Shown here in pieces: positions 3,375 to 20,684 of a DNA stretch of 33,290 bases. This DNA is from a virus: positions 1-33,290 of the IMG/VR virus record IMGVR_UViG_3300032086_000936; one strand, 5' to 3'. The translations under genes and the position numbers were made by a program. Each line of letters begins with the position of its first letter. The first letter of the stretch is position 1. Below the pieces are notes generated by a model, which worked only from the letters and a program-made list of their open reading frames with translations, was not told the DNA's origin and did not search any database.

Positions 3375-3483
3375 TTTTGCTTCCTTTCTTACTGTATATG
3401 TAAACATTAGCGTATATTTTTGTAAGTGTAAAGCATAAAAAGTATTTATTTGCGTTTTTATTTACAGGTGATAGTCTGCCGCC
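3375..3483. promoter_or_regulatory. Divergent promoter/operator region between leftward cluster and rusA
   Basis: AT-rich 109-base gap between divergent genes. Read leftward, TTTACA at 3434-3429 region and TAATGT 17 bases on form a plausible promoter for the 41-residue gene. For rusA only a weak pair (TTGTAA 3420-3425, TATTTA 3443-3448, 17-base gap) is visible. The 13-bp TGTAAAGCATAAA (3427-3439) and TGTAAACA (3399-3406) both recur in the region at 6701-6788, suggesting common operators or a shared promoter architecture. Confidence 0.5.
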
Positions 3484-4229: not shown

Positions 4230-4657
4230 AGCTTTTTAAAATCGTTTACTGGTATCTTGCATAATAACTCTGATATTTCTGGGTTATCGCGTCTGCTCCA
4301 TTTTTTGCCTGACCTCGTTAGTTCAAAGGTTTGGTCTAGGTTTACAAAGCCCAATCTATCTTCCCATGATACCACAAAAAAGCACGGTAATCCTGTTGCT
4401 TTTGTTAGTTCGTCAGCTCTTATTTTTTTAGTGAGTGACATAAAGCAATCTTCAAAAGTGCCAAACTTATGTGTGCGGCATCGGATTTCCACGAAAGCTG
4501 TTATTTTATCATCGCGCACCGCTAAATAATCAAATTTATCGTAATGTCCCTGCTTTACCATCTGGCATTTCCATCTGTATTCCAGGTATGCGCTTATTTC
4601 CGTTTCGTTATCTTCGTCGCCCTTCTTGTATATGCCATCATACTGAGAGTGGGTCAT
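4226..4657 (-). CDS. PD-(D/E)XK-like nuclease with Arg in place of the motif Lys
   Basis: 143 residues from ATG 4657; a TTG at 4663 is an alternative. A helix with Glu residues is followed by Phe-Asp-Tyr-Leu-Ala-Val (D43) and Phe-Val-Glu-Ile-Arg-Cys-Arg (E57, R59), then Gly-Thr-Phe-Glu and a Lys-rich helix, then a Pro-Cys-Phe-Phe-Val-Val-Ser-Trp strand. The D...E-X-(K) spacing and the strand-helix-strand order match small PD-(D/E)XK enzymes such as phage recombination nucleases. The canonical Lys is Arg here, which may lower activity or be a tolerated variant. It sits between the DUF1367-like and HNH genes with short overlaps and could be the nuclease partner of the annealing protein. Confidence 0.55.
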   Translation of the reverse strand: MTHSQYDGIYKKGDEDNETEISAYLEYRWKCQMVKQGHYDKFDYLAVRDDKITAFVEIRCRTHKFGTFEDCFMSLTKKIRADELTKATGLPCFFVVSWEDRLGFVNLDQTFELTRSGKKWSRRDNPEISELLCKIPVNDFKKL

Positions 4658-5039
4658 AACCAAGTGTCTCCGCTAGTTTAGCCATAGCCATTTCAAAGTA
4701 GCTGTTAAATTCGTCTTGCTCCATATCTTCAAAGCTAATGCTGTCTATGACGCGCATGTGGCATCCCGCCAGGTTATTCCAACGCATTTTAACATACCCA
4801 CACGCCCACTTTAGATCGTTGTGTAAGTGATCGTCCGTGGGCCACTTTCCAGTAGCCTCACGCACTTTGCGCAGCGTTGCCCAATACAAGTTATGCTGTG
4901 GGTTGGAACGCTTCTTTGTTTTCTGCATGTTGAAAACGGTGCCTTGTGAGCAATCTTCTAGCTGTATTGCATCATATTCCGTTAGTGGAACCAAAGCACC
5001 TTCAACCTTCATTACTTGTATCTTAGTCATAGTCGCCAT
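4638..5039 (-). CDS. DUF1367/NinB-like recombination-associated protein
   Basis: 133 residues from ATG 5039 (alternative ATG 5030); both overlap the upstream gene and neither has a strong ribosome site. The block Ser-Asn-Pro-Gln-His-Asn-Leu-Tyr-Trp at about 45-53, the Trp-Pro-Thr-Asp-Asp-His-Leu-His motif, and the C-terminal Met-Ala-Lys-Leu-Ala-Glu-Thr-Leu-Gly-Tyr-Asp-Pro-Leu match phage DUF1367 proteins, which resemble the NinB recombination group. These proteins are usually encoded beside SSB, resolvase and annealing genes, as here. A DNA-binding role in recombination is likely; the biochemistry is not established by the sequence. Confidence 0.65.
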   Translation of the reverse strand: MATMTKIQVMKVEGALVPLTEYDAIQLEDCSQGTVFNMQKTKKRSNPQHNLYWATLRKVREATGKWPTDDHLHNDLKWACGYVKMRWNNLAGCHMRVIDSISFEDMEQDEFNSYFEMAMAKLAETLGYDPLSV

Positions 5040-5520
5040 GCGGGTTTAGAAATTCTTGACCATGTGATTGTGCTTGCACAAATATAAATCTTGCTCTGCT
5101 TGGCGTTATTCCGTGCCGCTTTCCAATTGCTGTAAACTTTTCTCCGTTTAATCGTTCTTCATATATTTTTCTATTACGAGCGACTTTTTCTTTGGGAATG
5201 GTTTGAAATCGTTTTTTTATTTTCCGTCCTTGACCGTGGCGTTCTTGCCAAGGCCAGTGTTGCTCAATAAAAAACATAATCTCGTTATATGTTCTGCGAC
5301 CTATGTTTTGGACTTTTAACCAATTGTGCCGTGCAATCCTGTCTCTATCTCCAGGATTATTTAAATCTGCTCCTGCGCCAAATTCACACTTAATCATGTT
5401 TGTTGCACGAACTGACAATTGGTTTTTCCAATCTATCGGTTCTCTTTGTTTTTCGTATTCTTCAACGGACATCATAGTGCCGTCTTTTAACGTGACCACA
5501 TGATAAATTTCATATTTCAT
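5023..5520 (-). CDS. RNA polymerase alpha-CTD-like plus sigma-region-4-like HTH protein, putative transcription regulator
   Basis: 165 residues from ATG 5520; an in-frame start at 5553 would overlap the SSB gene. Residues 35-87 closely resemble the alpha subunit C-terminal domain of bacterial RNA polymerase. VRATN (37-41) aligns with E. coli VRSAN (R265, N268), and QNIGRRTYNEI (71-81) aligns with PNLGKKSLTEI (N294, G296, K298, S299, E302). The DNA-contact positions are kept or conservatively changed (K to R, S to T). Residues 112-150 contain an Ile-Gly-Lys-Arg-His-Gly-Ile-Thr-Pro-Ser-Arg-Ala-Arg helix-turn-helix like sigma region 4 or LuxR-type HTHs. A basic linker joins the two. I infer a regulator that binds UP-element-like DNA or host RNA polymerase partners. 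It lies between SSB and the DUF1367-like gene in the leftward operon. Confidence 0.65.
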   Translation of the reverse strand: MKYEIYHVVTLKDGTMMSVEEYEKQREPIDWKNQLSVRATNMIKCEFGAGADLNNPGDRDRIARHNWLKVQNIGRRTYNEIMFFIEQHWPWQERHGQGRKIKKRFQTIPKEKVARNRKIYEERLNGEKFTAIGKRHGITPSRARFIFVQAQSHGQEFLNPHGDYD

Positions 5521-5536: not shown

Positions 5537-5932
5537 TTAGAACGGTATTTCATCGTCCATGTTGTTTGTCATATTTGCACCTTCTGGCATGCGATCATGT
5601 TCGGTGTAACTGTTACTAGCTTGGGACTGTTCAGGTTTGCGCTGATTGGTAAAGTCAATGTCGCTTGCTCTTACGTTGAAGTAAGTGCGCTTTTGTCCGT
5701 CCTGACCTTCGCGCTCAACAATTTGAAGGCTACCTGATGCGGTTATTTTTGTGCCTTTTTTGATAAATTCGGCAACTTTTGTGTTCCAATAGTAGACGGT
5801 AAACCAATCTGTTCCGTCCTCACGTTTATAGCCTCTGTTAACTGCGACAGATATGGCGACAGACTGCCCTTTCGCGTTCTCTTGAATTTCACTGTCTTTG
5901 CCGACAGTCCCGACAATTGTAATAGCTTTCAT
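5537..5932 (-). CDS. ssb: Single-stranded DNA-binding protein
   Basis: 131 residues. The N terminus reads as an OB-fold first strand (Ile-Val-Gly-Thr-Val-Gly-Lys-Asp), with a Val-Ala-Val-Asn-Arg strand, a Trp-Phe-Thr-Val-Tyr-Tyr-Trp strand that aligns with the conserved Trp region of bacterial SSB, and a Gly-Ser-Leu-Gln strand. A Gln/Asn/Met-rich flexible tail ends in Met-Asp-Asp-Glu-Ile-Pro-Phe, the acidic tip that in SSBs recruits partner proteins. It is a little shorter than bacterial SSB because of a short linker. The start overlaps the stop of the annealing protein gene (ATGA), a pairing common in phage recombination modules. Confidence 0.9.
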   Translation of the reverse strand: MKAITIVGTVGKDSEIQENAKGQSVAISVAVNRGYKREDGTDWFTVYYWNTKVAEFIKKGTKITASGSLQIVEREGQDGQKRTYFNVRASDIDFTNQRKPEQSQASNSYTEHDRMPEGANMTNNMDDEIPF

Positions 5933-6522
5933 GTCATTAACTCCACTTTGCGTTTTTCATGTGCTTCTAAAACTTGCTCATATTGTGCCTCTGTAAGATC
6001 AGGGCTGTTGATGATTTTGGTATATTTGCTCTCCGCTTTGTCAAACTGTTCTTGGGTGCAGTTTTCATAGAAGGTCAGCATAGCATCTACGCGATCTTCT
6101 AAGTTTAGCGTCATTGGTGGCGTGGCTTCTTTTGGTTTTGCAGCCTTGAAGTCGTCGGCTTCTTCCTCTGAGTAAACATCACCGTGCAAGCCTACCAGTT
6201 TAAGTATTACCCTATCCTTGGCGCGTTTCTCTGCCATAGCAAAGGGGTAACTGTTTTTGTTGTTGTATGGTGCCGCTTCGCCAATAGACCATTCTGTAGC
6301 CTCTGCCATGTGGCCTGTTACGCATATAACCGCCTCTTTAGCGGCTACGTCACATGCTATGATCTGCGGTTGGTCAAATACTACGTTGTAATGTGCAGCT
6401 ACCTTTTCCAAAGCCTTGTGCAATACAACTGGTGTTCCGTGGCAATCCCAAACCGCTTGGCGTTCTGTTAGGCCAATGTCTTTTAGGATTTCTTGCAAAC
6501 GTGCTGGTAGTTTCTTAGCCAT
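5929..6522 (-). CDS. Single-strand annealing protein, Rad52/Erf-like
   Basis: 197 residues. The first 125 residues show a Trp-Asp-Cys-His-Gly segment, a beta-rich middle (Ile-Ile-Ala-Cys-Asp, Ala-Val-Ile-Cys-Val-Thr-Gly), a Trp-Ser-Ile-Gly-Glu-Ala-Ala-Pro motif, and the helix Tyr-Pro-Phe-Ala-Met-Ala-Glu-Lys-Arg-Ala-Lys-Asp-Arg-Val with Gly-Asp-Val-Tyr-Ser-Glu-Glu-Glu-Ala-Asp (92-122). This pattern is found in phage proteins placed in the Rad52/Erf annealing groups. A Pro linker and a helical C-terminal domain follow. It would anneal complementary strands during recombination and concatemer formation. Its place beside SSB, nucleases and RusA supports this. The family assignment is from memory of motifs and is moderate. 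Confidence 0.55.
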   Translation of the reverse strand: MAKKLPARLQEILKDIGLTERQAVWDCHGTPVVLHKALEKVAAHYNVVFDQPQIIACDVAAKEAVICVTGHMAEATEWSIGEAAPYNNKNSYPFAMAEKRAKDRVILKLVGLHGDVYSEEEADDFKAAKPKEATPPMTLNLEDRVDAMLTFYENCTQEQFDKAESKYTKIINSPDLTEAQYEQVLEAHEKRKVELMT

Positions 6523-6700: not shown

Positions 6701-6788
6701 TGTTTACCTCATTTATTGCTATTTACTGTTTACATAATTATTTTTAACCTGTAAAGCATAAATATACAAATTGTTAATGAGGATGATA
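6701..6788. promoter_or_regulatory. Divergent promoter/operator region between recombination operon and HTH regulator
   Basis: Very AT-rich gap between divergent genes. It holds TGTTTACC (6701-6708), TGTTTACA (6727-6734) and the 13-bp TGTAAAGCATAAA (6750-6762). The last two also occur in the 3375-3483 region, TGTTTACA there in reverse. Rightward, TATACA at 6763-6768 is a possible -10 for the HTH gene. Leftward, TTTACA at 6755-6750 with TAAACA 17 bases on is a weak pair. The HTH protein encoded beside it is the obvious candidate binder. Confidence 0.5.
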
Positions 6789-9104: not shown

Positions 9105-9154
9105 CCTAAAAGAAAACCTCTATATTGTTTACAAATCACATAGAGGGCGCACCC

Positions 9155-10414
9155 ATGAAAGATGGACGGTCTTGGCCTGCGGATAAGGTTGAGCGTAGAA
9201 ACATAAAAAGCATTATACCTTACGCACGAAACAGTCGCACCCACAGCGATGAGCAAGTGGCGCAGATAGCCGCAAGCATAAAAGAGTGGGGCTTTACCAA
9301 CCCGATCCTGGTTGACGTAGATGGCGAAATCATCGCAGGGCATGGGCGTTTACTCGCAGCACAAAAGCTAGGTTTAGACGAAGTTCCATGCATAACGGCT
9401 GTTGGTTGGTCTGACGCACAAAAGAAAGCCTATGTCATAGCAGATAACAAACTAGCCCTAAATGCAGGGTGGGATAACGATATGTTGTCCATTGAGTTTG
9501 CGGAACTGAAAGACATGGACTTTGATCTTGGCCTTACAGGTTTTGACGCGGACGAACTGGCGAAGCTGCTGCAAGAGCCAGAAAAGGATGGTTTAACGGA
9601 CGAGGACGATGTTCCAGAGGCACCAGAGCAACCTGTAACGGTAGAAGGAGACGTTTGGATACTAGGTAATCACAGGCTAATGTGCGGCGATAGCACAAGC
9701 ATTGATGCTCTAGAAAAGCTGTGCGAAGGGCAGTTAGTAGATATGTGGCTCACCGATCCACCCTACAACGTGGCTTACGAAGGCAAAACAAAAGACGCCC
9801 TTACAATTGAAAACGATGCGATGGGCAATGATGAGTTTCGTCAGTTTCTAAGGGATAGCTATAGCGCAGCTGATGCCGTTATGAAATCAGGAGCTGTCTT
9901 TTACATCTGGCACGCCGATAGCGAGGGTTATAACTTTAGGGGCGCAGCTTTTGATATAGGTTGGCAAATACGTCAGTGCCTGATTTGGAAAAAGCAAACG
10001 ATGGTGATGGGTCGCCAAGACTACCATTGGAAGCACGAGCCTTGTCTATACGGCTGGAAAGATGGCGCAGCGCACCTTTGGTCAACGGATAGAAAGCAAA
10101 CAACTATCCTAGAGTTTGATCGTCCTAGCAGAAACGCTGAACATCCAACAATGAAACCAGTAGAGTTGTTTGCGTATCAAATGCAAAACAATACGAAGGG
10201 CGATGACCTGGTTCTAGATAGCTTTGCGGGTTCAGGAACCACAGCTATAGCCTGTGAAAAGTTTAATCGCCGCGCAAGACTAATGGAACTAGACCCTGTT
10301 TACTGCGATGTTATAGTAAAGCGGTGGCAAGACTTCACTGGCAAAACAGCCAAGCATGAAGAAACAGAACAGACCTTTGCAGAAATGCAAGAGTCACGCG
10401 GCATCGGTGGGTGA
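9155..10414 (+). CDS. ParB-domain / DNA methyltransferase fusion (beta-class N6-adenine or N4-cytosine)
   Basis: 419 residues from ATG 9155 (GAGGG 7 bases upstream; the frame extends to 9125 but without a ribosome site). Residues 15-135 are a ParB/Srx-like nuclease-type domain: Pro-Tyr-Ala-Arg-Asn-Ser-Arg-Thr-His, then Ile-Ile-Ala-Gly-His-Gly-Arg (59-65) and an Ala-Asp-Asn-Lys-Leu-Ala motif. After an acidic linker, the methyltransferase has DPPY (201-204, motif IV), HPTMKP (330-335) and FAGSGTT (357-363, motif I, AdoMet binding). Catalytic motif before AdoMet motif is the beta-class order. Such fusions are common in phages, protect DNA from restriction or mark it, and have no partner endonuclease here. 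The recognition site cannot be read from sequence. Confidence 0.85.
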   Translation: MKDGRSWPADKVERRNIKSIIPYARNSRTHSDEQVAQIAASIKEWGFTNPILVDVDGEIIAGHGRLLAAQKLGLDEVPCITAVGWSDAQKKAYVIADNKLALNAGWDNDMLSIEFAELKDMDFDLGLTGFDADELAKLLQEPEKDGLTDEDDVPEAPEQPVTVEGDVWILGNHRLMCGDSTSIDALEKLCEGQLVDMWLTDPPYNVAYEGKTKDALTIENDAMGNDEFRQFLRDSYSAADAVMKSGAVFYIWHADSEGYNFRGAAFDIGWQIRQCLIWKKQTMVMGRQDYHWKHEPCLYGWKDGAAHLWSTDRKQTTILEFDRPSRNAEHPTMKPVELFAYQMQNNTKGDDLVLDSFAGSGTTAIACEKFNRRARLMELDPVYCDVIVKRWQDFTGKTAKHEETEQTFAEMQESRGIGG

Positions 10415-16050: not shown

Positions 16051-17493
16051 GTGCGATACATTGGCAACGTAGAAAAAGATGCTCAAGTCAGGGCGGTAGC
16101 CTCTGGTGTGCTATCTAACGGCGATACTGTTATTGTGAACTCAGACGGCACTGTGAGTGCTGTAAGTGGCGCAAGCGCGGCTACTGGAACAGAGGTTGTT
16201 TATCAATCTGGACAAGCGGAATATTCTGTTTCAGCATATGATGCCTCTAATGATAAAGTTGTCGTTTTTTACAGAATTTTTTCGGGTGGCGCGACATACG
16301 GCGCAGTAGGAACAATTAGCGGAACTTCTATAAGTTTTGGCTCTGGTGTTAGCACTGGATTAAGTGGTGAACCTCTTGCTTGTGTTTATGACAGCACGAA
16401 CAATAAAGTTGTTATTTTTGCCGTAACAGGCGGGGGTGCGGGAAGTTCTGTCGTTGCAACGGTATCTGGCACAAGTATGTCGTTTGGTTCAGTAGCCAAC
16501 TTTACATCGTCGTCTGTTAATCCAACATATTATAACCCTGTATTTGATACTAATACTGGCAAGGTAGTTCTTTTTTATGCTGACAGCAGTAATAGTTATT
16601 ACGGTAATGCAGTAGTCGGCACAGTAAGTGGCACTTCTATTAGCTTTGGGACACCTGTTGTATTTAATAGCGCAAGTACGTTTAGTGTACATGGGCCAGA
16701 TGCGGCTACATTTGATAGCTCAAACAATAAAGTAGTTATCACTTACCGTGATGCTGGGTATGCAAATTCAAAAGTTGGAACCGTTAGTGGGACTTCAATT
16801 AGTTTTGGCTCTGCTGCTGCGTGGACGTCAAATGTTATTGCCGAACCAGTTTCTTCTTATGACGCAGATCAGGGTAAAGTATTTGTGTTCTACAGGGATC
16901 AAACTGATAGCAATATAAATAAAGGTGTTTTGGGGACTGTAAGCGGAACCTCTATTAGTTACGGGACACCAGCCACAGTTTATGACTCAGCATCGTCGTA
17001 TGGCAGAGATAATAGAATTTCATACAATGCCGCTGCTAAAACTCATCTGATTTCGTTTAAAGATGATACAACTGAAAATTTATATTTTGTTGAGGTTGTT
17101 GTTTCGGGCAGTTCATTTACTGCAAGTTCTGATAGTGTTTATGCAACCACATCAAGTGCGGCTGGTACAATAGCTTATGACAGTGGTTCTGAAGCAAATG
17201 TTATATTCTTTCAAGACGGCGACAATTCACTTTATGGGACAGCTTTTGTTAAAGTAATTGGCTCCACCAACCTCACCTCAGACAACTTCATAGGCTTCGC
17301 TGATAGCGGATACGCAGACACGCAGAGTGCGGCTATCAACACAACTTGCTCGGTAGACCGAAATCAAACGGGCTTAACCGCAGGGCAAAAGTATTATGTG
17401 CAAACAGATGGGTCGCTTGGATTAAGCGCAGATACACCATCGGTAGAAGCTGGCACCGCAATATCATCTACGGAAATCTTGGTGAAAGGATAG
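16051..17493 (+). CDS. Seven-repeat propeller-like fibre/adhesin A
   Basis: 480 residues, GTG start at 16051 with AAGGAG upstream. A 45-residue N-terminal domain (Val-Asn-Ser-Asp-Gly-Thr-Val-Ser) is followed by seven repeats of about 50 residues. Each opens with Tyr/Phe-Asp...Lys-Val-Val...Tyr-Arg-Asp and closes with Val-Gly-Thr-Val-Ser-Gly-Thr-Ser-Ile-Ser-Phe-Gly. The last two repeats have diverged. The C-terminal domain has Thr-Asn-Leu-Thr-Ser and GLTAGQKYYVQTDG. Seven such four-strand units fit a seven-bladed beta-propeller, a frequent sugar- or protein-binding fold. It is the first of three tandem paralogues, so probable receptor binding. No enzymatic motif seen. Confidence 0.7.
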   Translation: MRYIGNVEKDAQVRAVASGVLSNGDTVIVNSDGTVSAVSGASAATGTEVVYQSGQAEYSVSAYDASNDKVVVFYRIFSGGATYGAVGTISGTSISFGSGVSTGLSGEPLACVYDSTNNKVVIFAVTGGGAGSSVVATVSGTSMSFGSVANFTSSSVNPTYYNPVFDTNTGKVVLFYADSSNSYYGNAVVGTVSGTSISFGTPVVFNSASTFSVHGPDAATFDSSNNKVVITYRDAGYANSKVGTVSGTSISFGSAAAWTSNVIAEPVSSYDADQGKVFVFYRDQTDSNINKGVLGTVSGTSISYGTPATVYDSASSYGRDNRISYNAAAKTHLISFKDDTTENLYFVEVVVSGSSFTASSDSVYATTSSAAGTIAYDSGSEANVIFFQDGDNSLYGTAFVKVIGSTNLTSDNFIGFADSGYADTQSAAINTTCSVDRNQTGLTAGQKYYVQTDGSLGLSADTPSVEAGTAISSTEILVKG

Positions 17494-17497
17494 ATAA

Positions 17498-17752
17498 ATG
17501 AAAACCATCGTAGAAACATCAACTGGTCTAAGCAAATACTTGCTTGCTGATGACGTAACAATCGTAAGCAACGCAGATAACATCGTTGTTGGCGATCCTG
17601 CGCAGTTCATTATTGGCGACCTAAACAGTGGCACAGTGACAATCACAGAGAACGTGACAAACGCCCCTGCGGATTGGTCAGGCAACAAGTATACCTTCGA
17701 CGGAACAACATGGACGCTAAACCCTAACTGGGTTGACCCTGACGCTGAATAA
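17498..17752 (+). CDS. Small virion protein between adhesins A and B
   Basis: 84 residues. The N terminus is Lys-Thr-Ile-Val-Glu-Thr-Ser-Thr-Gly-Leu-Ser-Lys-Tyr-Leu-Leu, followed by beta-like Val-Thr-Ile-Val-Ser and Ile-Thr-Glu-Asn-Val, and a Trp-rich acidic end (Thr-Trp-Thr-Leu-Asn-Pro-Asn-Trp). Such proteins are found beside fibre genes in marine phages and may be fibre-assembly or fibre-base components; the role is inferred. It lies 5 bases after A and 10 before B, so it is co-transcribed with them. Confidence 0.6.
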   Translation: MKTIVETSTGLSKYLLADDVTIVSNADNIVVGDPAQFIIGDLNSGTVTITENVTNAPADWSGNKYTFDGTTWTLNPNWVDPDAE

Positions 17753-17762
17753 GGAATAGCAC

Positions 17763-19214
17763 ATGCGTATCATTGGTAATGATCCCAATACACCAAGACA
17801 GACACGAGTTGTCGCCAGTGGTACGCTGTCCACGGGGGATACTGTAGTCGTTAATTCCGACGGTACTGTGAGTGTTGTCGGTGGTGCTTCTCAATCAATC
17901 GGGTCAGCCGTAAACTTTAATGCTGGCATTACGGACACACCTCACTCTACATTTGACGCAAATGCTGGTAAAATTGTAGTTGCATATCGTGATGAAAGTA
18001 ATTCAGATTACGTTACGGCAATCGTTGGAACGGTATCAGGGACATCTATTAGTTTTGGTACAGAGGTTGTTGTTGAGAGCGTAGCGGTAAATGGCGAAAT
18101 ACCAATAGTCTATGATGCTAACGCTCAAAAAGTTGTTGTGTTTTACTATGACAGTGTCGGAAACTCACAAAAAGCAAAAGTGGGCACTGTAAGTGGGACT
18201 TCAATTAGTTTTGGGTCGTCTACCCAAGTCACAACGGAAAACCCAACATTTGCCGCTGCTACCTACGATGCTAATGCGCAAAAGGTTGTGTACTTTCTTG
18301 CTGACGCTGGCGGCTTTCAAAATGGCGGCTACCCAACAGCGGTTGTGGGAACTGTATCTGGGACATCAATTAGTTTCGGGAGTTCTACTGCTGTAAAAAG
18401 CAGTGCGTCTGATTATTTATCTATTGCCTACGATAGTAATGCTCAAAAAGTTGTTGTCTGTTGGCAAGATAACGGAAATTCGAATTATGGTACGGCGGCT
18501 GTCGGTACGGTTTCTGGGACTTCAATTAGCTTTGGTTCTTCGGTCGTGTTTCAAAGCGCCTCGACAGAATACACATCCGTTGCATTTGATAGTAACAGCA
18601 ATAAGGTCGTAGTCGCTTATCAAGAGGGCGGTGCAAATAACGACAGCTATGCAATAGTGGGAACAGTTAGTGGCACAAGTATTAGCTTTGGAACTAGAGT
18701 GCAGATCACTACTAACACTGCGCAAAATCACAATGTTGTCTACGACAGTACTGCAAAAAGAATAGTTATTACATATAGAGACTTTGGAAATAGTAGCTAT
18801 GGGACTTACGTTATAGGCGAGGTAAGCGGCACAAGCATCACCTTAGGAACTCCTGCGGTTTTTTCAGCAGGCGAAACTCAATTTCCCTCTCTGGCCTTTG
18901 ATAGCTCCAACAATAAAGTTGTCATATCCTACAGAAATGGCAGTAGCTCAAACTATGGCCAATCAATAGTTTTACAGGTTGGCTACACCAACCTCACCTC
19001 TGAAAACTACATCGGCACAGCCAAGTCAGGCGCAGCGGATGGCGATGGCGTTGTTGTGAATACGCAGGGTGCGATAGACGATAACCAGACAGGCTTAACC
19101 GCTGGCCAGAGTTACTACGTTCAAACAGATGGCACACTAAGTACAACGGCTGGTGATCCAAGCGTATTCGCTGGCACGGCTGTATCTGCAACTAAACTTA
19201 TCGTGAAAGGGTAG
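17763..19214 (+). CDS. Seven-repeat propeller-like fibre/adhesin B
   Basis: 483 residues. Same order as A: N-terminal domain with the Val-Val-Asn-Ser-Asp-Gly-Thr-Val-Ser-Val motif, seven repeats, and C-terminal TGLTAGQSYYVQTDGTL. The repeats are the most regular of the three, with Tyr-Asp-Ala-Asn-Ala-Gln-Lys-Val-Val in several blades and the Val-Ser-Gly-Thr-Ser-Ile-Ser-Phe-Gly closure in most. A 23-base stretch at 18192-18214 is identical to one in gene A at 16785-16807, which could allow recombination between paralogues. The surface loops between repeats vary, as expected if they contact a receptor. Adhesin role is inferred. Confidence 0.7.
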   Translation: MRIIGNDPNTPRQTRVVASGTLSTGDTVVVNSDGTVSVVGGASQSIGSAVNFNAGITDTPHSTFDANAGKIVVAYRDESNSDYVTAIVGTVSGTSISFGTEVVVESVAVNGEIPIVYDANAQKVVVFYYDSVGNSQKAKVGTVSGTSISFGSSTQVTTENPTFAAATYDANAQKVVYFLADAGGFQNGGYPTAVVGTVSGTSISFGSSTAVKSSASDYLSIAYDSNAQKVVVCWQDNGNSNYGTAAVGTVSGTSISFGSSVVFQSASTEYTSVAFDSNSNKVVVAYQEGGANNDSYAIVGTVSGTSISFGTRVQITTNTAQNHNVVYDSTAKRIVITYRDFGNSSYGTYVIGEVSGTSITLGTPAVFSAGETQFPSLAFDSSNNKVVISYRNGSSSNYGQSIVLQVGYTNLTSENYIGTAKSGAADGDGVVVNTQGAIDDNQTGLTAGQSYYVQTDGTLSTTAGDPSVFAGTAVSATKLIVKG

Positions 19215-19217
19215 CAC

Positions 19218-20684
19218 ATGCTTAAAGTATTAGGCGAAGACAGCGGCAAGTTTAAGGCAGTAGCAAGCGGCACGTTACCCAACGGCAAGCCTGTGGTTGT
19301 GAATAGCGATGGGACTGTGAGCGTTATTAGTGAAACAAGTGTGTCGGCGCAAACAACAACGCCAACGACTTTCACAACGAACACCATAAACTTCTTTTTA
19401 GATGCTGCATATGACAGCGGAAACGATAAGGTCGTTGTTGTTTACAGTGATGGCTCTAACAGCAATTACGGAACAGCAGTTGTCGGAACAGTAAGTTCTT
19501 CCAATAATTCAATTACATTTGGAACGCCAGTAGTTTTTGATAGCTTAAATGCCCGTAATACCGTTGTGGCATATGATGCAAATGCTGGGAAGGTAGTGGT
19601 TGCTTACTATGGATTTTCTTCACCAAACACAGGTTTGGCTATTGTTGGGACTGTAAGTGGGTCTAGCATTAGTTTCGGTTCAAGAGTCACCATGAATGCA
19701 ACAGGCCCAAGCGGAGAAATAGGCATTGTATATGCGCCAGATCAGCAAAAAATAGTTTGTTCGTATAGGGATCAGTATAACTCAAATTACGGTACAGCTA
19801 TTGTTGGCACTGTAAGTGGAACATCCATCAGTTTCGGTACTGAGGTCGTCTTCAATAGTGGCACAACTTATCAAAATACTTTGGGGTATGACACAACAAA
19901 GAACAGAGTATTGTGCGCCTACAGAGACAATAGCAATTCAAACTATGGAAACATAGTTGCGGGTACAATAAGTGGCACATCTATTACTTTTGGCAGTGAA
20001 TATAATTTCTCTAGTTCGGCATATGCGGCTCCCTTTGAGATTGTTCATGATAGTGTAAATAACAAAAATGTTATTTTTTATTCGGGTAGTCCACAGTACG
20101 GCAAATCTATAGTCGCAACTTTAGATGAAAGTGATAATTCATTAACTTTTGGAACTGAAGTCCAATTTAAAGGTGCATCTATAGGTAGCTCTGGTGCTGC
20201 TGCTTTTAACGCTGCCGCTGGCAAGATAGATGTTATCTATATGGACGAAGGTGACAGCAACAAAGCTAAGTTTGTCACTGGTACGGTAAGCGGGACAAGC
20301 ATATCCTATAGCAGTGAAACTACAGTAGACACAAATGTGACTGACTATTTCTCTGTTGCGTATAACACTACGCTCAAAAATAATTTCATTGCCTATAGTG
20401 ATGAAACCAATACTCAAGGTGAGGCATTTGTTAATCAGTTGGCCTATACTGAAACCAACCTAACCTCTGAAAACTACATTGGCATATCCTCTGGCGGGGC
20501 TGTCGCTGACACAGGTAACGCAACGGTTGATATTATCGGCACAGTCAACAAAGACCAGACAGGCTTAACGGCGGGGCAGAAGTATTATGTGCAAAATGAC
20601 GGCACACTTAGCACCACTGCGGGAAGCCCTAGTGTGTTGGCGGGAACCGCAATATCTGCTACAAAGTTAGTAGTGAAAACATAA
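19218..20684 (+). CDS. Seven-repeat propeller-like fibre/adhesin C
   Basis: 488 residues, 3 bases after B. The N-terminal domain is shorter but keeps Val-Val-Val-Asn-Ser-Asp-Gly-Thr-Val-Ser. Seven repeats follow; blade 5 uses a Ser-Leu-Thr-Phe-Gly closure and blade 1 an Asn-Asn-Ser-Ile-Thr-Phe-Gly closure instead of the common form, so C is the most diverged paralogue. The C-terminal domain again has TGLTAGQKYYVQNDGTL and ends Ala-Thr-Lys-Leu-Val-Val-Lys. It is likely to form a trio with A and B in the tail tip or side fibres, possibly as homologous or mixed oligomers. Confidence 0.7.
   Translation: MLKVLGEDSGKFKAVASGTLPNGKPVVVNSDGTVSVISETSVSAQTTTPTTFTTNTINFFLDAAYDSGNDKVVVVYSDGSNSNYGTAVVGTVSSSNNSITFGTPVVFDSLNARNTVVAYDANAGKVVVAYYGFSSPNTGLAIVGTVSGSSISFGSRVTMNATGPSGEIGIVYAPDQQKIVCSYRDQYNSNYGTAIVGTVSGTSISFGTEVVFNSGTTYQNTLGYDTTKNRVLCAYRDNSNSNYGNIVAGTISGTSITFGSEYNFSSSAYAAPFEIVHDSVNNKNVIFYSGSPQYGKSIVATLDESDNSLTFGTEVQFKGASIGSSGAAAFNAAAGKIDVIYMDEGDSNKAKFVTGTVSGTSISYSSETTVDTNVTDYFSVAYNTTLKNNFIAYSDETNTQGEAFVNQLAYTETNLTSENYIGISSGGAVADTGNATVDIIGTVNKDQTGLTAGQKYYVQNDGTLSTTAGSPSVLAGTAISATKLVVKT

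Follow-up and report, generated by a model that had tools for sequence, protein, structure and literature searches.

The promoter on which the phage activator Mor works contains an UP subsite for the alpha-CTD as well (PMC4390567). In phage T4, AsiA/MotA and Alt/ModA are factors that act on sigma region 4 or on Arg265 of the RNA polymerase alpha subunit (PMC2988021). Jumbo phages have minimal single-HTH sigma factors, and a text search of a review of these factors (PMC7824862) returned no mention of the alpha-CTD. In the open-access papers searched, no description of phage alpha-CTD fusions was found. Here, we analyse a virus record of 33,290 bases (the window, taken at its full length), whose recognized genes include terminase, portal, major head protein and endolysin. 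An earlier note on this DNA had remarked on one small protein that pairs an alpha-CTD-like domain with a helix-turn-helix (HTH), and this observation is confirmed. Alpha-CTD/HTH fusions seem to be viral gene regulators of a type that has been overlooked, because at least a dozen other phages have built similar ones.

The fusion gene and its neighbourhood

The fusion gene belongs to a leftward operon that comprises orf61, a gene in the position of a recombinase, SSB, the fusion gene itself, NinB/Orf, a PDDEXK nuclease and an HNH/DUF968 protein. The genes that concern us are as follows.

5929-6522, minus strand: recombinase-position gene (recombinase by position and relatives), used as the anchor for finding relatives
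5537-5932, minus strand: SSB gene, just upstream of the fusion gene in the operon (Pfam SSB, 1.1e-14; phrog_44, 3.9e-25)
5023-5520, minus strand: alpha-CTD/HTH fusion gene (165 residues, pI 9.7, net charge +9)
4638-5039, minus strand: NinB/Orf-like recombination mediator gene, which shares 17 bases with the end of the fusion gene

The fusion gene starts with an ATG at 5520, preceded in the window sequence by AGAGG seven bases upstream, and a 16-base spacing separates this start from the SSB gene. The recombinase-position gene gave no convincing family match in Pfam or PHROG; its relative in a Pseudanabaena phage is annotated 'recombination protein'. No phage RNA polymerase-like ORF was seen in the ORF list of the window on inspection by eye. 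Elsewhere in the window, one ORF (9125-10414) joins a ParB-like domain to a DNA methyltransferase (phrog_498, 1.4e-177), and three mutually similar ORFs of 480, 483 and 488 residues (16051-20684), apparently near-tandem paralogues, are rich in VGTVSGTSISFG repeats.

The placement of the fusion in a recombination operon, as first described, stands: SSB and NinB flank the gene, and the combination recurs in other phages, three of which also have it in a recombination operon. In these three (L083, L091 and L189), Sak4 stands on one side of the fusion gene, and on the other are a phrog_2480 gene, SSB and a Cas4-type exonuclease (family search carried out on L091). Of the five genes compared across the three loci, the fusion gene diverges fastest: aligned identities of its protein are 37-57%, against 83-96% (Sak4), 72-83% (exonuclease), 61-66% (SSB) and 60-78% (phrog_2480 gene). 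Two ORFs at L083:6095-7002 resemble QueE and QueD (7-deazaguanine DNA modification) by eye.

The recombinase-position gene led to 29 relatives of the window in IMG/VR, many of them fragments, and most retain the SSB-NinB order. None of the 29 contains a match to the fusion protein, either in this slot or elsewhere in these often fragmentary records, and a PF03118 search of 19 of them gave no match. The slot between SSB and NinB is occupied by a 118-residue ORF in L008 and by other small ORFs in L025 and L027, and elsewhere holds little; in L002, L006 and L007 it encodes a 284-residue protein with a DGQHR motif (DGQHRLEA). The fusion gene is accessory and sits in a variable slot; it is inessential to the core programme, since relatives with the same operon do without it.

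The two halves of the fusion protein

Three segments can be distinguished in the protein.

5437-5520, minus strand: N-terminal segment, residues 1-28, a predicted beta-hairpin and helix without an assigned family (pLDDT block means 71-86)
5257-5430, minus strand: alpha-CTD-like domain, residues about 31-88 (top match in Pfam and NCBIfam, profile score against shuffles, alignment and model helices)
5065-5193, minus strand: C-terminal HTH, residues about 110-152 (profile matches; pLDDT block means 94-98 over 111-150)

Residues 30-88 alone retrieve RNA_pol_A_CTD as their sole Pfam family (E = 0.021 among 24,736 families); the same family is found with the whole 165-residue protein at E = 0.2, and the best NCBIfam match of the domain is RNA polymerase alpha (E = 0.085). 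The profile searches favour the family originally proposed over an unrelated one, at E-values that are weak (0.02-0.2). Scores against PF03118 (11.8-15.0 bits) fall under the Pfam gathering cut-off of 23.8 bits. When scored with a profile made from 45 other phage alpha-CTDs, the window protein reaches 16.5 bits, compared with 8.0 bits for the best of 20,000 shuffles. Weak as it is, the profile evidence for residues 35-82 points to one family, the alpha-CTD.

The domain was aligned with alpha-CTDs of other phages, 49 rpoA sequences taken from bacterial genomes and E. coli alpha, the last of which was entered by hand, as were the pieces of alpha and sigma used in seed alignments A1 and A7. In this alignment, R38, N41, N72, G74, R76, T77 and E80 correspond to alpha 265, 268, 294, 296, 298, 299 and 302, so that all seven residues originally named as DNA contacts are kept. 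The pattern that fetched the phage alpha-CTDs drew partly on letters of the window protein around 294-302, a small circularity from which R265 and N268 are free, since neither was selected on. Of the 41 other phage alpha-CTDs that lack an HTH, 40 have R265, as do all 12 with an HTH; the corresponding counts for N268 are 29/41 and 11/12. The protein-contacting positions have changed. Alpha in the alignment is acidic at 261 and 286 and mostly at 288. In the window protein, position 261 is Q and 259 is K32 or a gap, with loss of the acidic determinant that contacts sigma region 4, and 286-288 read R/H/N, with loss of the acids that contact the activator CRP. The earlier suggestion that the protein replaces alpha contacts is weakened, because neither 259/261 nor 286/288 is acidic. 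About five extra residues separate the first two helices of the domain.

The presence of an HTH at residues 110-152 is firmly indicated by profile comparison. In a tblastn search, residues 109-151 matched L083, a locus that had been fetched by its alpha-CTD motif, with 40% identity. The HTHs from L083, L091, L189, L088, L097 and L123 were combined into a profile, against which the window HTH scores 34.6-35.3 bits (E = 7e-9 among 17,333 ORFs at 35.3 bits), with 12.3 bits for the best shuffle. Seven of the 17,333 ORFs score higher, namely the six from which the profile was made and L093, which is nearly identical to L097; the window protein is eighth, and the ORF that follows it reaches 30.6 bits. 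The pattern RN..I...R..G.......GI...R is common to the window and fusion HTHs. Of the label 'sigma-4-like' given to this half, the HTH itself stands and the sigma-4 part is loose: with a sigma-4-type profile the window HTH reaches 17.4-17.6 bits, and the window protein has no Pfam match to PF04545 (Sigma-70 region 4). It likewise lacks a match to the Mor/C families PF08765 and phrog_836/532. The HTH is nearer to a Mor/HTH_23-like type than to canonical sigma region 4.

AlphaFold, run with a 36-row alignment of alpha-CTD domains and the whole L083 and L091 proteins, gave a model with a mean pLDDT of 83.5 and a pTM of 0.52; the blocks of the alpha-CTD region average 85-93 and those of the HTH 94-98. 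Helices 37-47, 56-63 and 75-88, together with a short helical turn near 67-69, agree with the four-helix HHH-type fold of the alpha-CTD, which is in part imposed, as the alignment consists mostly of alpha-CTDs. The lone sequence gave a poor model (pLDDT 38.5). Foldseek searches with the whole chain against the PDB and viral models returned nothing at E <= 0.001; short alignments of the HTH to a phage sigma-4 protein and a Mor protein had probabilities of 0.99-1.00 and r.m.s.d. values of 0.6-0.7.

Recurrence of the fusion in phages

Pattern scans of IMG/VR yielded 55 distinct phage alpha-CTD proteins, all of which match PF03118 at E <= 0.01. A fused HTH is present in 13 of the 55, in either domain order, a proportion that is not a natural frequency because the count depends on the motif used. 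They are arranged as follows.

Alpha-CTD first: L083, L091, L189
HTH first: L088, L097, L123, L129, L194, L198, L200, L201, L202
L191: alpha-CTD followed by a sigma-4-like end, possibly with another HTH in front

The Pfam cut-offs for PF03118 and PF04545 are both cleared by L129, L194 and L200, and that for PF03118 by L083 (39.7 bits), L091 (25.8 bits) and L189 (24.7 bits). The L083 protein has 131 residues and matches RNA_pol_A_CTD at 4.1e-10 and Sigma70_r4 at 0.017. The HTHs of L083, L097, L123 and L198 match Mor/C profiles weakly, and that of L201, which has no Pfam match, is assigned from the HTH profile (5.4e-5). In the human-gut phage scaffold MT835636, a sigma-4-like HTH and an alpha-CTD, the latter recognized by eye and by one sequence match, share one frame. 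The window protein fits the proposed grouping, with both domains in one chain and an HTH of the RN..I..R.NG type. In L119, an HTH gene (1446-2075) and a separate alpha-CTD gene (2053-2439) overlap, like a split fusion.

A four-member family profile was compared with all PDB sequences. The first 43 matches are RNA polymerase alpha chains, aligned over positions about 5-75 (best 7e-10), and ten weaker matches (E = 0.044-0.87) are mostly sigma-factor region 4, at about 102-137. This profile, made from the four alpha-CTD-first proteins, also hit 365 of the 385 alphaproteobacterial genomes; among the matches listed, most are rpoA-sized frames confined to the alpha-CTD part of the profile, and the few that reach profile positions 107-139 all contain stop codons. 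The L083 protein had 54 matches in species genomes, all of rpoA length or longer; three of the six inspected (L135, L136 and L140) are something other than rpoA. L135:3497-4459 (Afipia) and L136:376-1371 (Nitrobacter) show, by eye, a GIY-YIG/T5orf172-like N-terminal part and two alpha-CTD copies. Used as a query on its own, the window protein retrieved no relative from viral contigs, GenBank phages or species genomes and no match among PDB sequences; a scan with alignment A2 also gave no match. Our tentative view, held at a little short of even odds, is that phages have repeatedly and independently joined an alpha-CTD to a sigma-4/Mor-like HTH to make portable promoter adaptors for the host polymerase, with the window protein as a divergent example of this class, of a type found in recombination operons.

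Predicted function and comparison with known systems

We predict, with a probability of roughly 0.6, that the window protein is an accessory, early-acting phage regulator of transcription that binds DNA. The computed support consists of the two domains, the kept DNA-contact residues, the lost acidic protein-contact residues and the recurrence in phages; against it, relatives with the same operon lack the gene, Foldseek gave no significant whole-chain match, and the neighbours are recombination genes and not known regulators. The C-terminal HTH would read a specific sequence in the major groove, while the alpha-CTD-like domain, connected to it by a basic linker, would hold the adjacent A/T-rich minor groove, as the alpha-CTD does on UP elements. 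Placed near the -35/UP region of selected promoters, the protein could alter their use by the host RNA polymerase. Activation of phage promoters may be slightly preferred over repression, because Mor, which the HTHs of some members resemble, is an activator.

A binding site of the fusion protein was not found in this analysis. The earlier note had suggested 3375-3483 and 6701-6788 as targets, and both intergenic regions contain an identical 13-bp motif.

6750-6762, plus strand: 13-bp motif TGTAAAGCATAAA; second copy at 3427-3439

Copies of TGTAAAGCATAAA occupy corresponding places in L003 and L006, relatives that have the adjacent repressor and lack the fusion gene. The motif was rejected as evidence of binding by the fusion protein, since relatives without the gene carry it, and for the same reason is better explained by something common to the relatives, such as the adjacent 67-residue HTH repressor, of which it is a candidate operator.

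The neighbourhood would suit an accessory recombination factor, a DNA-binding HHH and HTH protein acting alongside SSB and the annealing protein rather than at promoters. HHH domains are common in repair proteins, and two unrelated phage types have such a fusion gene in a recombination operon, flanked by SSB and NinB in the window and by Sak4 and SSB/Cas4 exonuclease in the three other loci. We nevertheless consider this role unlikely: the profiles choose the alpha-CTD over generic HHH families, the window protein retains alpha-CTD-specific residues, and other phages fuse the alpha-CTD to bona fide sigma-4 or XRE-type HTHs. The combination of retained DNA-contact residues and missing protein-contact acids would also be expected of a repressor or UP-element competitor that displaces the host alpha-CTD from A/T-rich promoters and shuts down host or early phage transcription, and T4 attacks the same Arg265 function by ADP-ribosylation (PMC2988021); a general competitor would have no need of a specific HTH, however, which makes this improbable. 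It is very improbable that the alpha-CTD resemblance arose by chance in an ordinary HTH protein with an unrelated N-terminal half, as the modest individual E-values and the absence of an alpha-CTD from the best 50 PDB Foldseek matches listed might suggest, given the margin over shuffled sequences, the grouping of the window HTH with those of other alpha-CTD fusions and the fact that L083, fetched by its alpha-CTD motif, then matched the window protein through its HTH.

Should the class prove real, phages would possess ready-made modules for promoter reading that resemble pieces of the host polymerase, and these would be natural probes of the cooperation between alpha-CTD and sigma region 4 and new candidate regulators among phage proteins annotated without function. 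A regulator of the predicted kind should have bipartite sites, in which an HTH half-site adjoins an A/T-rich minor-groove site.

Among known systems, the bacterial alpha-CTD (PF03118) shares with the window protein the profile match, the helix spacing and the equivalents of R265, N268, N294, G296, K298, S299 and E302; the window protein differs in having no alpha N-terminal domain, in its roughly five extra residues, in the loss of the acids at 261 and 286/288 and in its fused HTH. The GITxSRxRxIF stretch of that HTH resembles sigma 4.2 of Sigma-70 region 4 (PF04545), for which three other phage fusions pass the cut-off, but the window HTH scores better with HTHs of the RN..IY..R.NG type. The Mor/C activators (PF08765, phrog_836/532) are likewise phage HTH regulators, but Mor, unlike the window protein, has no alpha-CTD domain. 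The jumbo phage factors are also small phage HTH promoter factors and, as far as PMC7824862 describes them, are without an alpha-CTD. AsiA/MotA and Alt/ModA of T4 bind or modify the host polymerase, whereas the window protein resembles parts of the polymerase itself.
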